Part shown: positions 5,143-38,216 of the stretch, one piece after another
Position numbering within the stretch: position 1 is the first letter of the stretch
How the letters are laid out: every line of letters begins with the position of its first letter
Source of the DNA: a virus
Length of the DNA stretch: 43,409 nucleotides
IMG/VR virus record: IMGVR_UViG_3300000117_000057
Span: 1-43,409 of that record
Direction: 5' to 3' (one strand)
Made by a program: the position numbers and the translations under genes
The notes under the pieces: generated by a model
The model's input: only the letters and a program-made list of their open reading frames with translations
The model's database searches: none
Told to the model about the DNA's origin: nothing

Positions 5143-5182
5143 AATAAACTTCTTGAACTAATCGTTTGAGAATAATTTGCTA

Positions 5183-25021: not shown

Positions 25022-25858
25022 ATGAATTATAGGTTTTACTATCCCCAATGGAATAGTCGAAAAGATGTATGTAAGGACTATCCTGAAATCAAAGAAATTA
25101 CAAAAGAACCAATAGCCTTTTGGTATGGAGTTGGGCCTAAGAGAACAATTAGGAAAACCAAACATTCCATACAAAGATTACTCAAACGGGCACATCCATA
25201 CTTACCAATATTAGTAATATATTCAATACCATACAGAGATTTAGGTCACCATTCTAAAGGTGGTGCAGATTCAGATGATGAATACTTAAAATTTATACAA
25301 GAATTTTGTAGTGCACTCGGTGATAAATCACCCATTGTAATATACGAACCTGATTGTATTCCACATATGGAACAAATGGGTGTGGTTGATGGGTTGGATA
25401 GGATGAGGTTGATTAAGGCAAGTATTGAGTTATTAAGTAGGACAAATGCGTCAGTTTACATAGACATAGGACACCCAAAATGGTTAAGTGTTCCTAAGGC
25501 AGTAAGCTATTTAGGTTTATGTGATGTTCACAAAGTAAATGGATTCGCACTAAACACGAGTAACTATTATGCCACCACAACTTGTTATGAATATGGAAAG
25601 AAGATTTCAAAACGACTTAATAATACTCATTTTGTAATAGACACCTCAAGAAATGGAAACGGAGCTAATTCAGAACATTTCAATCCGTTTGGTCGTTCAA
25701 TTGGTGAATATCCCACAACAAAAACCTGTGATGAAATAGTAGATGCTTACTTGTGGGTAAAGGTGCCTGGTGAAAGTGATGGAAGGGTTAATGGTGGCCC
25801 AAAGGCTGGTAGATTCTCTCATCACCTCGCTTTAGATTTGATACACAATAAAAAATGA
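25022..25858 (+). CDS. Glycoside hydrolase family 6 (cellulase-type) enzyme
   Basis: A 278-residue enzyme of the GH6 fold, a family that hydrolyses beta-1,4-glucans with inversion. Motifs appear in family order: LVIYSIPYRDLG (64-75, Asp73), VIYEPD (106-111, Asp111, the likely catalytic acid), VYIDIGHPKWL (145-155), GFALNTSNY (174-182), HFVIDTSRNGNG (203-214) and LWVKVPGESDG (244-254, Asp253). All expected active-site acids are present. There is no signal peptide, carbohydrate-binding module or linker, so it is a bare catalytic domain. The downstream SGNH-like gene overlaps it by ATGA. Substrate is unknown; a host or matrix glucan is inferred. Confidence 0.9.
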   Translation: MNYRFYYPQWNSRKDVCKDYPEIKEITKEPIAFWYGVGPKRTIRKTKHSIQRLLKRAHPYLPILVIYSIPYRDLGHHSKGGADSDDEYLKFIQEFCSALGDKSPIVIYEPDCIPHMEQMGVVDGLDRMRLIKASIELLSRTNASVYIDIGHPKWLSVPKAVSYLGLCDVHKVNGFALNTSNYYATTTCYEYGKKISKRLNNTHFVIDTSRNGNGANSEHFNPFGRSIGEYPTTKTCDEIVDAYLWVKVPGESDGRVNGGPKAGRFSHHLALDLIHNKK

Positions 25859-26591: not shown

Positions 26592-26620
26592 TTGACTTTC
26601 TCATTTATCCTTTGTATATT
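26592..26620 (+). promoter_or_regulatory. Sigma70-type promoter
   Basis: TTGACT (26592-26597) and TATATT (26615-26620) are separated by exactly 17 bases. A near-copy, including the flanking AAAAAACAC and CTTTG before the -10 box, lies at 27084. It directly follows the stop of the SGNH gene and would start RNA near 26627, before the 31-codon ORF. Confidence 0.8.
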
Positions 26621-27711: not shown

Positions 27712-27957
27712 ATGAATATTAAAAATGAAATCAGAAAATTAAGTAGTCTTTCAGAACTAAACGACCTATCATCGTTTATTAGTGAGTGTAAAACTATGTT
27801 AGGTAAATCAACATTAAGAGTTGGTTCTAAAGTGTGGTGTGTTCAGAAAACTAAAAAGACCAAAGGTGTCATCACTAAGATGAACATCAAGAAAGCCATC
27901 GTAGAGATGAGTGGTATGAAATATAGTGTTCCATTTGGTATGTTAGAAGTGAGGTAA
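27712..27957 (+). CDS. Small basic protein with SH3/KOW-like core
   Basis: An 81-residue basic protein with AAAGGAA before its ATG. Residues ~35-80 (LRVGSKVWCVQ, TKGVITKMNIKKAIVEM, YSVPFGMLEV) have the alternating pattern of a small beta-barrel of the SH3/KOW kind often seen in phage-encoded nucleic-acid or protein-binding proteins. It has its own promoter and terminator. Function is inferred only. Confidence 0.55.
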   Translation: MNIKNEIRKLSSLSELNDLSSFISECKTMLGKSTLRVGSKVWCVQKTKKTKGVITKMNIKKAIVEMSGMKYSVPFGMLEVR

Positions 27958-27976
27958 AAAAAAACTTAAAAAACAG

Positions 27977-28004
27977 CAAAAAAGCCCATCGTTTGGGTTT
28001 TTTT
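27977..28004 (+). terminator. Rho-independent terminator before the structured RNA
   Basis: CCCA and TGGG form the core of a hairpin extended by G-T and A/T pairs (AAAAAAGCCCA with TGGGTTTTTTT), followed by the T run. It separates the 27712 gene from the non-coding region. Confidence 0.8.
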
Positions 28005-28017
28005 GTATATATATATA

Positions 28018-28629
28018 TTTGTATCCGTTAAGATACAAAGATTTTTGAAAAATTGAAAATGGAAGATAGGGAGAGTAATTATCTCTCTATGGGATTGACC
28101 GAACAATGGGTGGACTTTGAAGCCCATAAGGTAATCTATACTTGGACTTGTGGTGAGTTGATATTCGGGCGAATGTGAACAATATCTTATGACAATATCA
28201 AGTAAATGTACTTCAAGAAAAAAACAAGAAGCGATTCTTAGACCTTGTTGTGGGTAAGGGTAAAACCGAAATCCCACTTTATGACCGAATTAATCTAAAC
28301 TCAGAGAGATAAGGTAATGACACAGAGGTTGTACTCACTTTGACGATGATTAACCATCATTGAGGAGAACCAAAGTAACTTTTGGGTGTTAGGTACAAGG
28401 TAAAAAAAATCTGAGCTTGAAGTTGTGAGTAATCGCAAATCTCACATCCCCAAATTTTCATATCTGTAGAACTGAAGCCAGTAGTAATAAAACCGACTAC
28501 GTGCAACGCGATGTTGAAACAAACATCTTAAATCGTTATAAAGCCGGATGTTCTACACAATTTAAGGTGATGAGGATTTCTTACATATACCCGATAATTT
28601 TAATTATCTAAAACTCATCATCTTTTTTT
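28018..28629 (+). ncRNA. Large multi-branched structured non-coding RNA (~610 nt)
   Basis: No plausible gene lies here on either strand, yet complementary segments nest consistently. A 5' hairpin pairs 28018-28025 with 28032-28039. A closing helix joins 28054-28060 and 28454-28460. Inside it are 28066-28074/28082-28090, 28106-28110/28123-28127 and 28158-28165/28194-28201. A domain closed by 28211-28217/28416-28422 stacks on 28300-28305/28410-28415 and contains 28329-28334/28393-28398, 28337-28342/28371-28376, 28344-28350/28356-28362 and a hairpin with a GCGA tetraloop (28226-28239). A further hairpin is 28424-28429/28441-28446. The 3' domain is closed by 28465-28472/28550-28557, and the RNA ends in a terminator. 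Size and setting recall phage giant RNAs such as GOLLD and ROOL; identity is unproven. Confidence 0.75.
28566..28629 (+). terminator. Rho-independent terminator ending the structured RNA
   Basis: GGTGATGAG (28566-28574) pairs with CTCATCATC (28614-28622), nine pairs with one G-T, followed by seven T (28623-28629). An inner hairpin GATAATT/AATTATC (28593-28608) fills the loop. It defines the 3' end of the RNA. Confidence 0.8.
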
Positions 28630-28659
28630 AGTTTTTAGCAAGAAAAAAATGATTTTTAA

Positions 28660-28687
28660 TTGACAAGGTTATATTTATATTCGTCAA
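28660..28687 (+). promoter_or_regulatory. TATTTATA element flanked by an inverted repeat, before the ssb gene
   Basis: TATTTATA (28672-28679) lies between TTGAC (28660-28664) and GTCAA (28683-28687), a 5-bp inverted repeat. It sits in the 120-base gap between the RNA terminator and the gp32-like gene and may be its promoter or an operator. TTGACA here has no -10 box at normal spacing, so a sigma70 reading was not adopted. Confidence 0.3.
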
Positions 28688-28749
28688 AGGTTATGACCAA
28701 TGACAAATATTAAATAATAAATAAACATAAATAATAAGGAGAATATCGA

Positions 28750-29514
28750 ATGGATATTGAAGCAGTACGCAAAAGATTGGCTCAGTTACAAACTACCAAT
28801 ACCCGAACCACAAACCTGTGGAAACCTCAACCGGGAAAATCACTAATAAGGATTGTTCCTTACAAACTACAAACAGAATCACCATTTATTGAGTTGTTTT
28901 TTCATTATGACTTAGGTGGTAAAACCTATCTTTCACCAATCTCATTTGGTCGCCCAGATCCGATTGAAGAATTTGCTGACAAATTAAAGTCAAGTGGAAA
29001 TCGTGAAGATTGGAGACTTGGTAAGAAGTTAGAAGCAAAGCTTAGAACTTTCGCACCTGTTGTTGTTCGTGGAGAAGAAGGACAAGGAACGAAGTTTTGG
29101 GGATTCGGTAAAACCGTATACCAAGAACTTTTATCTATTATAGCAGATCCTGATTATGGTGACATAGCAGATCCTGTAAATGGTCGTGATGTTATGGTAG
29201 AATTCTTAACAGCAGAAGAAACCGGAGCTAACTTTCCTAAGACTAACATTCGTGTTAAACCAAATCAAACACCAATCACAGATAACAAAGCTTTGTTAGA
29301 AACTGTTCTAAAAGAACAAAAAGACATTGCTGAAGTTTATCAAGAACTCTCATATGATGAGTTAGCAGAAGCTCTGAATGATTGGTTAAACCCCTCAGAA
29401 GATGGAGACGATAGTTCAACAAAAGACGAAACAGTTCCAGCATCTACTTTAAAATCGGCAGTAAATTCTACTTCTGATGCAGGTAGTGCATTTGACGACT
29501 TGTTTAATTCATAA
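28750..29514 (+). CDS. Single-stranded DNA-binding protein (T4 gp32-like)
   Basis: A 254-residue protein, shorter than T4 gp32 (301 aa). The N-terminal basic segment is followed by TTNLWKPQPGKSLIRIVPY (16-34), the start of the gp32 OB-fold in marine T4-like phages. The C-terminus is acidic and Ser/Thr-rich and ends AFDDLFNS, matching the acidic partner-recruiting tail of SSBs. It coats single-stranded DNA at the replication fork and in recombination with the UvsX encoded 10 bases downstream. AAGGAG precedes the ATG. Confidence 0.88.
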   Translation: MDIEAVRKRLAQLQTTNTRTTNLWKPQPGKSLIRIVPYKLQTESPFIELFFHYDLGGKTYLSPISFGRPDPIEEFADKLKSSGNREDWRLGKKLEAKLRTFAPVVVRGEEGQGTKFWGFGKTVYQELLSIIADPDYGDIADPVNGRDVMVEFLTAEETGANFPKTNIRVKPNQTPITDNKALLETVLKEQKDIAEVYQELSYDELAEALNDWLNPSEDGDDSSTKDETVPASTLKSAVNSTSDAGSAFDDLFNS

Positions 29515-35390: not shown

Positions 35391-38216
35391 ATGAATAAAC
35401 GTAATCTATTAATATCATTATTGATGACAGCAGGATTGTTTGCACAAACTATCGTTGGAGTTGTTAATGGTGGTACTGAACCATTGGTTGGAGCAAATGT
35501 TGCTGTTGTAGGAACTGATAAAGGTGGTGTAACAGATGAATCTGGTAATTACACTATTGATGTCGGAACTGAAGGCACATACACATTAACTGCTTCATTC
35601 ATTGGATACTCATCTGCAACATTTGATGTTGAGGTGGGTGATATAGTTGGAACACTCAACTTCGATTTAGAAGAAGATGTTTTAACCATGTCGGCACTTG
35701 AAGTTTTAGCATCGAGAGCTGATGAAAAAACACCTGTTGCTTACACAACGATTAGTAAAGAGGATATGGAAGTTCGTCTTGGTTCACAAGATATTCCAAT
35801 GGCCTTAAACACTACTCCAAGTGTATACGCAACTCAACAAGGTGGTGGTGCGGGTGATGCTCGTATCAATGTTCGTGGTTTCAACCAACGAAATGTAGCA
35901 GTGATGATAAACGGTGTTCCTCAAAATGATATGGAGAACGGATGGGTTTATTGGTCTAATTGGGATGGAGTTGCAGATGCAGCAGAATCAATTCAGATGC
36001 AAAGAGGCCTGTCAGCTGTTAATCTAGCTACACCTTCAATCGGTGGAACAATGAACATCATAACAAGTCCTGCATCTCAAGACAAAGGTGGGAAGTTCAA
36101 ACAAGAAAGTGGGGCAGGTGGTTTTCTAAAAACTACTTTAAACTATAATTCAGGTTTAATCGCTGACAAACTAGCACTTAGTGGAACGATAGTTCGTAAA
36201 ACTGGTGATGGTATCATTGATGGAACTTGGACAGATGCTTGGGCTTACTATCTTGGTAGTTCTTTTCAGTTAAATGATAAGAACCGATTTGAGTTGTATG
36301 CGATAGGAGCTCCACAGCGTCATGGTCAGAACCTTTACAAACAAAATGTAATGGCATATGACAAAGAGTTTGCAAAAGAAATAGCCGATTATAAAGGACT
36401 TTCTGCAGCAGATTCTGATGAAGATGGAACAAGTGATTGGGATGAGTATGTAGCAAAATTCACTAACGAAGTTGGTGATGACGCAGGTAGACTTTTTAAT
36501 CAAAATGTCGCACCTATCAATCCTAATTATAATGGACAACAATATTGGTATATGTATGGAGACAAAACAACCGATAGATTTAGTCCTAACTTCCTCAATG
36601 AAAGAGAAAACTTCTTTCATAAACCATTAGTCAACCTTAACCATTTCCTAACAATAAACGATAAGACTCGTTTGAGTTCAGTTGCTTATTGGAGTGGTGG
36701 TTCAGGTGGTGGAACAGGAACCTATGGTAGAATTCCTACACTTGATGTTGATGGTAATCTCGGTGATGACGACTATAAATTCTATTATGGTGGAAGTCCT
36801 TGGACGCGTGATTGGAATACATTGATTGACTACAACTCTGGTGATTCAGATACAGTTTATGTAGACAAAAGAGCTATTCCAAGAACTCATGGTGATGGAA
36901 ATAATCAATCTGTTGGTATTCTTAGAAATAGTATCAATCGACAAGGAACATATGGACTCATTTCAAAACTTAACCACAAGGTTAATGATGAACTTGAAGT
37001 TCAAGTTGGTATCGATTGGAGAACTGCTGAAATCGAACACGCACGTGAAGTTCGTGATTTATTAGGTGGTGATTACTATATGGATTACTCGGATGATAAT
37101 CATGCTGATGGTAAGAAAGCTGGATTAGGTGACATAATCGCATATCACAATCATACTACGGTTGATTGGTTAGGTGGATTCGTTCAAGGTAATTATACCG
37201 CAGACAAGTTAAACCTATATGGTATGGCTGGTCTTTCAGGTATCAAATACACTTATCAGGATCACTTTACAGTTGAAAATGAGTTGATTGAAGCAGACGC
37301 TATCATAACTTCTCAGTTCAAAGGTGGAGCAGTTTATGATATAGACGATAATGTTAGTTTGTTTGGTAATATTGGTTTAGTAGAAAAACCACCTATTATG
37401 GATAATGTAATATACAATGATGGAACTGTCGCTTCAGATCCTGCTAATGAAAAATTTATTAGCACGGAGGCGGGTGTCAATTTCCGTTCTGAAAAATTTG
37501 CTGTAAAGGCAAATGTATATAACACAGATTGGAAAGATAGAAACCTTACTAAATCCGTAACCACGGGACAAGGTGACTCAGGTGATACTGATGTTATCTT
37601 TCTAACTGGTGTAAACCAAAAACATCAAGGACTTGAAGTAGAAGTTACTTCACAAGTTCACGATATTTTTAGGGTAGATGCAGCAATTAGTCTTGGTAGC
37701 TGGAAGTTCGATGGTGATGCAGATGGTAAATATCAAGAAAATGAATATGATGAACAAGGTAATGTAAGTGGTCTAACCACTACTGATTATCAATATGCAC
37801 TCGATGGATTGTATGTTGGTGATATGCCACAAACATCATATGTTTTCGGTGGAACTTTAACTCCTATCAAGGGACTTAAAATACAAGCACTATATAACAT
37901 CTATGATAATAACTACTCTGATTGGAGTCCTGATTCTCGTGAGGTTGATGGTGATGTAGATAGAGAACAAGTTTGGAAAGCTCCTGGCTATTCTAAAGTT
38001 GACCTACATGCAGCATACGACTTACCAGAATGGAATGGTTTAAAACCACAGGTCTTTGCTCATGTATTTAACGCATTAGATGCAGTATATGTTCAAGACG
38101 CAGTTGACCATAGTCAATATAATAGTTTTGGTGACAAGGTTCACGCAGCACACAACGCTGAAGTGTTTCTTGGAACACCAAGATATTTTAATGTTGGACT
38201 AAGTGTTAATTTCTAA
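35391..38216 (+). CDS. TonB-dependent outer-membrane receptor carried by the phage
   Basis: A complete 941-residue receptor that would import a scarce ligand across the outer membrane using TonB energy. Residues 1-19 are a signal peptide (LLISLLMTAGLFAQ). Residues ~20-97 form a carboxypeptidase-regulatory-like beta domain (PLVGANV, 'TDESGNYTI'). The plug (~110-225) has 'INVRGFNQRNVAVMINGVPQND' and 'IGGTMNIIT'. The remaining ~700 residues are alternating barrel strands, ending in Phe (NVGLSVNF). This domain order is typical of Bacteroidota and relatives. It follows nrdJ by 85 bases and ends at a strong terminator. Ligand unknown; cobalamin, siderophore or glycan are possible. Confidence 0.93.
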   Translation: MNKRNLLISLLMTAGLFAQTIVGVVNGGTEPLVGANVAVVGTDKGGVTDESGNYTIDVGTEGTYTLTASFIGYSSATFDVEVGDIVGTLNFDLEEDVLTMSALEVLASRADEKTPVAYTTISKEDMEVRLGSQDIPMALNTTPSVYATQQGGGAGDARINVRGFNQRNVAVMINGVPQNDMENGWVYWSNWDGVADAAESIQMQRGLSAVNLATPSIGGTMNIITSPASQDKGGKFKQESGAGGFLKTTLNYNSGLIADKLALSGTIVRKTGDGIIDGTWTDAWAYYLGSSFQLNDKNRFELYAIGAPQRHGQNLYKQNVMAYDKEFAKEIADYKGLSAADSDEDGTSDWDEYVAKFTNEVGDDAGRLFNQNVAPINPNYNGQQYWYMYGDKTTDRFSPNFLNERENFFHKPLVNLNHFLTINDKTRLSSVAYWSGGSGGGTGTYGRIPTLDVDGNLGDDDYKFYYGGSPWTRDWNTLIDYNSGDSDTVYVDKRAIPRTHGDGNNQSVGILRNSINRQGTYGLISKLNHKVNDELEVQVGIDWRTAEIEHAREVRDLLGGDYYMDYSDDNHADGKKAGLGDIIAYHNHTTVDWLGGFVQGNYTADKLNLYGMAGLSGIKYTYQDHFTVENELIEADAIITSQFKGGAVYDIDDNVSLFGNIGLVEKPPIMDNVIYNDGTVASDPANEKFISTEAGVNFRSEKFAVKANVYNTDWKDRNLTKSVTTGQGDSGDTDVIFLTGVNQKHQGLEVEVTSQVHDIFRVDAAISLGSWKFDGDADGKYQENEYDEQGNVSGLTTTDYQYALDGLYVGDMPQTSYVFGGTLTPIKGLKIQALYNIYDNNYSDWSPDSREVDGDVDREQVWKAPGYSKVDLHAAYDLPEWNGLKPQVFAHVFNALDAVYVQDAVDHSQYNSFGDKVHAAHNAEVFLGTPRYFNVGLSVNF

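Follow-up and report, generated by a model that had tools for sequence, protein, structure and literature searches.

Two manA-like cores within one outer helix in a structured RNA of a T4-like phage

What occupies the 612 nucleotides (28018–28629) that separate a run of small genes from gp32 in the genome of a T4-like phage? The window, i.e. the whole stretch of DNA that was analysed, is a 43,409-base IMG/VR record with genes for the tail sheath (5261), the gp32 SSB (28750) and UvsX/RecA (29525), together with a 5'-3' exonuclease, a DnaB-type helicase, a B12-dependent RNR, a family B polymerase and a processivity factor. The initial annotation had placed here, between small early genes and the replication genes, a large, globally folded phage non-coding RNA in a region without a plausible gene, and on these points our analysis agrees with it. 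Namely, the fold of the region is better than that of all 20 dinucleotide shuffles (z −4.4) and its relatives share a covarying consensus structure, described below, while the sole open reading frame of at least 60 amino acids overlapping it is an antisense frame of 103 amino acids. No open frame is conserved across 25 homologues, in which the longest frame switches both strand and reading frame; therefore, no coding is conserved, and a protein gene at this position can be ruled out. Neither a tRNA nor a tmRNA was found anywhere in the window.

To which family does such an RNA belong? The sole Rfam match in the window is manA (RF01745), at 28249–28450 (this and all features below lie on the plus strand), with 62 bits and an E-value of 1.5e-13 at a family cut-off of 55.2 bits, which is also passed by 11 other two-core loci (58.8–68.1 bits). 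The manA signature, UGACCGAA followed by a hairpin and UAAGGUAAU, is present twice, at 28096 and 28282, or 186 nt apart, and the spacing measured in homologues is 184–193 nt. In other words, a second manA-like core (28066–28217), missed by Rfam and overlooked in the initial annotation, lies upstream of the match, its part from 28096 to 28217 comprising the signature, a GUGGUG hairpin and a junction. Relatives carrying the same RNA were obtained by a gp32-anchored search, and a scan with the core 1 pattern found at least 90 viral contigs, at least 58 of them distinct among the loci examined (counts from contig scans are lower bounds throughout). A covariance model built from 25 sequences of core 1 alone and run on 369 kb of contigs with classical, one-core manA hit, outside itself, eight places with E<1, the best of them having an E-value of 0.01, and all eight lie on classical manA cores. 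While these matches are weak singly, their positions make the homology of core 1 to manA clear, and it is our belief that the double-core manA identity, as judged from sequence comparison, is almost certainly correct.

The suggestion of a possible new RNA class thus has to be given up, the 3' half being Rfam manA and the 5' half a manA-like core, and a single continuous new class can be ruled out, the core being manA and the 3' domain a separable motif. What is new is the architecture, two manA cores within one outer helix; the family itself is known, albeit as an orphan. The literature searched contains neither an assigned function for manA nor a description of a tandem form. GOLLD and ROOL, which had been thought to fit, are likewise large ornate phage RNAs without an assigned function, but the present core matches them neither in sequence nor in structure: the model of the conserved 3' domain of GOLLD (RF02032) gave no match at E≤5 in 27950–28750, nor did the Rfam covariance models of ROOL, OLE, HEARO and group I/II introns at the same threshold, and all of these are excluded as the identity of the core. 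In BLASTN searches against phage isolates, the RNA returned weak short matches only, and a scan of the species genomes of bacteria and archaea did not find the core 1 pattern in any of them.

How well is the proposed structure conserved? The consensus, derived from 25 aligned homologues that share less than 93% identity, spans 28066–28450 and contains 99 pairs in 19 helices and one pseudoknot. Paired cells amount to 98.5%, as compared with 83.7% in column shuffles, which leave sequence relatedness in, and at most 43.6% in the slide control, which removes relatedness and is also far below the observed value. What is more, 56 pairs exhibit double (compensatory) changes as opposed to at most 19 after sliding, and the covariation score is 0.480 vs. 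0.182. In particular, the P0a hairpin of core 1 (28066–28090) has 8 pairs, 3 of them with double changes. The 5' strand of the outer helix, GGGAU (28091–28095), is 100% paired with 28446–28450, with GC replaced by AU on both sides in 6 of the 25 sequences. The pseudoknot, which the initial annotation did not contain either, joins CUCAGA from the loop of core 2 (28300–28305) to UCUGAG (28410–28415); it is paired in 100% of the 25 sequences, with double changes in 6–7 of them and three further pairing versions. Outside the consensus, an arm at 28047–28060 pairs with 28453–28460, the duplex of a sequence's own arms being better than that of swapped arms (permutation p 0.0085). The closing helix originally drawn at 28054–28060/28454–28460 is thus supported, albeit with a shifted register. 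The 3' strands of both helices (28446–28460) are supported by covariation and by the arm permutation. Two further elements of the earlier drawing were found again, namely the three-level nested arm and the hairpin with the GCGA tetraloop, which is GNRA-like (AAGAA GCGA UUCUU) and lies in the linker (28211–28248), where its stem is kept in relatives although the sequence varies. At the very 5' end, the sequence permits a hairpin TTTGTATC/GATACAAA (28018–28039), and relatives have other hairpins at a similar position. Taken as a sequence-based structure, the RNA is a manA fold into which an entire further core has been inserted, the two sharing one common outer helix.

With classical manA, it has in common the UGACYGAA..UAAGGU signature, a GUGGUG-type hairpin, a junction, and a 3' hairpin that precedes the outer helix, but it has two cores instead of one and is about 410 nt long as opposed to 192. 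The layout of RF01745, in which a single core has its outer helix directly before UGACUGAA, is not found here, core 2 being without a 5' strand of its own. Because the two strands of the outer helix come from different cores, namely from the 5' end of core 1 and from the 3' end of core 2, the RNA is a variant and not a typical member of the family. Tandem riboswitches such as that for glycine also place a pair of similar cores one after the other on a single RNA; here, however, one outer helix encloses both cores, and the RNA has its own predicted terminator, behind which the next gene has a promoter-like element to itself.

Where would such an RNA begin and end? The gene upstream has a terminator hairpin, AAAAAGCCC / GGGTTTTTT, at 27978–28004, recognized from the sequence, and directly after it stands an AT-rich phage promoter-like element, TATATATATATATT (28006–28019), of a type that recurs at 5181, ahead of the tail-sheath gene, and at 28669, ahead of gp32. 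The block 27966–28019 aligns in one relative (L132) and in two loci that lack the RNA (L131 and L135), although the copy in L135 looks degraded. Among the 49 two-core RNAs tested, a TATATATA-type element lies ahead of 42 (control 7/196) and a terminator-like hairpin behind all 49 (control 10/196); these calls are pattern-based, with random positions of the same contigs as controls, and in a few loci, e.g. L220, the terminator pattern chose a weaker hairpin. In the window, the predicted 3' terminator (28566–28629), which follows a pattern seen in relatives, has a U tract and a loop of approximately 40 nt. It had been called perfect, a description that its stem of 7–9 bp does not bear out, and a simple terminator scan misses it. 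The small genes of the window are preceded by sigma-70-like promoters, unlike the tail sheath, the RNA and gp32. As a side observation, small genes are preceded at 26592, 27084, 27656 and about 38400 by early-type promoters that are nearly identical to one another (CTTGACTT...TTCGTAAGATC, with variants). The two-core form also differs in this respect from classical manA: it has a predicted terminator of its own and a late-type AT-rich promoter-like element, while the promoter of the classical form is sigma-70-like.

Is the RNA then a part of gp32 expression? This gene begins about 300 nt downstream of the manA match, beyond the predicted terminator and beyond a promoter-like element of its own, TTATATTTATAT (28669–28680), assigned by element type; with a strict pattern, a separate element between terminator and gp32 is present at 24 of 41 loci. 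At most two-core loci, gp32 is the next gene, and two-core RNAs with a terminator also occur outside the gp32 context (L219, L226, L254, L267 and L283). Among 62 gp32 loci, presence is all-or-none, with the whole two-core RNA in 26 and none of it in 36, and L135 is an empty site; therefore, gp32 does not need the RNA. In annotated cyanophages, classical manA is followed by gp32, purS, talC or hypothetical genes, or itself follows gp23 or pstS, and in Prochlorococcus phage P-HM2 (L295) it lies directly upstream of gp32, as in this distant lineage. The gp32 leader of T4 carries a pseudoknot operator. By analogy, one could picture the present RNA as an autoregulatory leader bound by the gp32 SSB, which would repress its own mRNA, and its repeated location ahead of gp32, both in the two-core lineage and in the distant one of P-HM2, would suit such an operator. 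That said, we regard it as highly improbable, for the terminator and the promoter-like element intervene, the RNA is missing from more than half of the gp32 loci, and classical manA also stands before talC, purS, tRNAs and other genes, or after gp23.

Another form of regulation was raised in 2010, when manA RNA was proposed as a riboswitch candidate (Weinberg et al., PMC2864571), a candidate that has stayed unexplained since. In a tandem riboswitch, the two cores would be aptamers sensing a metabolite and controlling the terminator at 28566–28629, in the manner of tandem glycine riboswitches, and thereby whether transcription reads through to gp32 and the genes for replication. The invariable terminator and the prevalence of gp32 as the next gene are in keeping with such a switch, and so is the fact that classical manA often lies 10–60 nt before a start codon. 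We nevertheless consider it unlikely: at many loci, gp32 has its own promoter-like element past the terminator, the RNA and its terminator are also found away from gp32, the terminator stems are wholly different between clades, and motif X (see below) may separate the core from the terminator. For the classical form (L289–L302 and L002–L121), the flanks of the RNA fit a leader as well as a free RNA. Just upstream of manA, a sigma-70-like promoter (at least 10/12) is present in 101 of 115 classical contigs (40 of 600 random positions). Downstream, a terminator is found in 33/103 (control 11/309) and a tRNA gene in 7/103, which favours the stand-alone form, as do the non-gp32 contexts; a same-strand open reading frame starts within 60 nt after 62 of the 103 RNAs, which suits a leader and speaks against the stand-alone form. 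We do not claim, in view of these last copies, that manA always stands alone. Against it are also the position of most two-core copies just upstream of gp32 and that of the classical copy in P-HM2. In our view, the annotation of RF01745 as cis-regulatory should be reviewed.

On the whole, the constant terminator-like hairpin, the frequent promoter-like element and the all-or-none presence favour a stand-alone RNA acting in trans over a gp32 riboswitch. We therefore lean, by a modest degree of belief, towards a stand-alone two-core RNA gene of approximately 600 nt with its own promoter and terminator, which would act in trans through equivalent partner sites. This grade covers the explanation as a whole; most of the doubt concerns the action in trans, the double-core structure, its covariation, the homology to manA and the bounding elements being read from the sequence itself. 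In detail, the RNA is probably transcribed from the phage-type promoter at 28006–28019 and would end at the predicted terminator at 28566–28629. Its body would be a tandem manA, the two cores held in one outer helix and the second locked by the pseudoknot, followed in this phage by the optional motif X. As a free structured RNA, it could then offer in each core an equivalent site for the same partner, be it a small molecule or a protein of the phage or of its host, which the tandem form may bind twice or cooperatively.

Motif X (28466–28556) corresponds to the separate 3' domain that had been drawn at 28465–28557. It is indeed a separate structure, but it is optional and lies outside the RNA core: in L125 and L132 it is absent, and the manA part joins the terminator directly. 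It consists of UGAAGCC, a hairpin with UAAUAAAACCGA, and AAAGCCGGA in the closing stem. All 13 pairs tested in 36 diverse copies show double changes, no Rfam family matches at E≤1, and the pattern is present in at least 120 viral contigs (e.g. L308:1315-1369, L311:1675-1732, L349:1516-1574 and L160:1533). In other loci, motif X directly follows gp32 and stands immediately ahead of the next start codon; the gene at that place in the window is uvsX/recA. It could be a ribozyme, a processing element or a riboswitch. Of 32 loci scanned, 12 have the motif ahead of GOLLD and on its strand, frequently in the company of tmRNA and tRNAs, and this indirect link is all that remains of the GOLLD/ROOL proposal. 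One may still ask whether the present RNA is, in the manner of those two, an RNA-only multimer, a cage or another homo-oligomer assembling late in infection. Its size, phage origin, stand-alone unit and elaborate fold, the shared motif X, and the duplicated cores, which could template symmetric contacts, would all be in line with such an assembly, but with neither family matched we hold it to be rather improbable. More broadly, and quite speculatively, manA could at root be a free phage RNA machine and not a riboswitch, its core duplicated here to give a two-site, stand-alone late RNA that is co-transcribed with motif X and that would form, with GOLLD and tmRNA as companions of motif X, a shared phage set of stable RNAs.

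The stand-alone reading of the two-core gene suggests a capacity of manA RNAs to work as free molecules and not only as switches before genes. With a promoter-like element and terminator of its own, and optional at its locus, the tandem form allows a direct test of whether manA is a switch or a free RNA, and the two-fold repeat makes it well suited to cryo-EM and pull-down experiments. Motif X, common to GOLLD loci, is a second uncatalogued RNA to look for. In relatives (L131:1002-1180, L132:301-520, L135:1690-1955, L125:560-960, L123, L127 and L277), further unannotated structured modules lie ahead of the two-core RNA, among them a GTAAGGTTCGAATCCTTAC element that resembles a T-arm and a hairpin module, GATGTTAAGTCATCACTGC...ACTACTGG, the latter in at least 16 contigs; in L125, there seems to be a non-coding RNA of about 900 nt after a single promoter. 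Finally, the window encodes a protein with a domain of glycosyl hydrolase family 6 (25022–25858, E 7.7e-45) and, between the RNR and the DNA polymerase of this T4-like phage, a TonB-dependent receptor-like protein of 941 amino acids (35391–38216) with Plug and CarboxypepD_reg domains.
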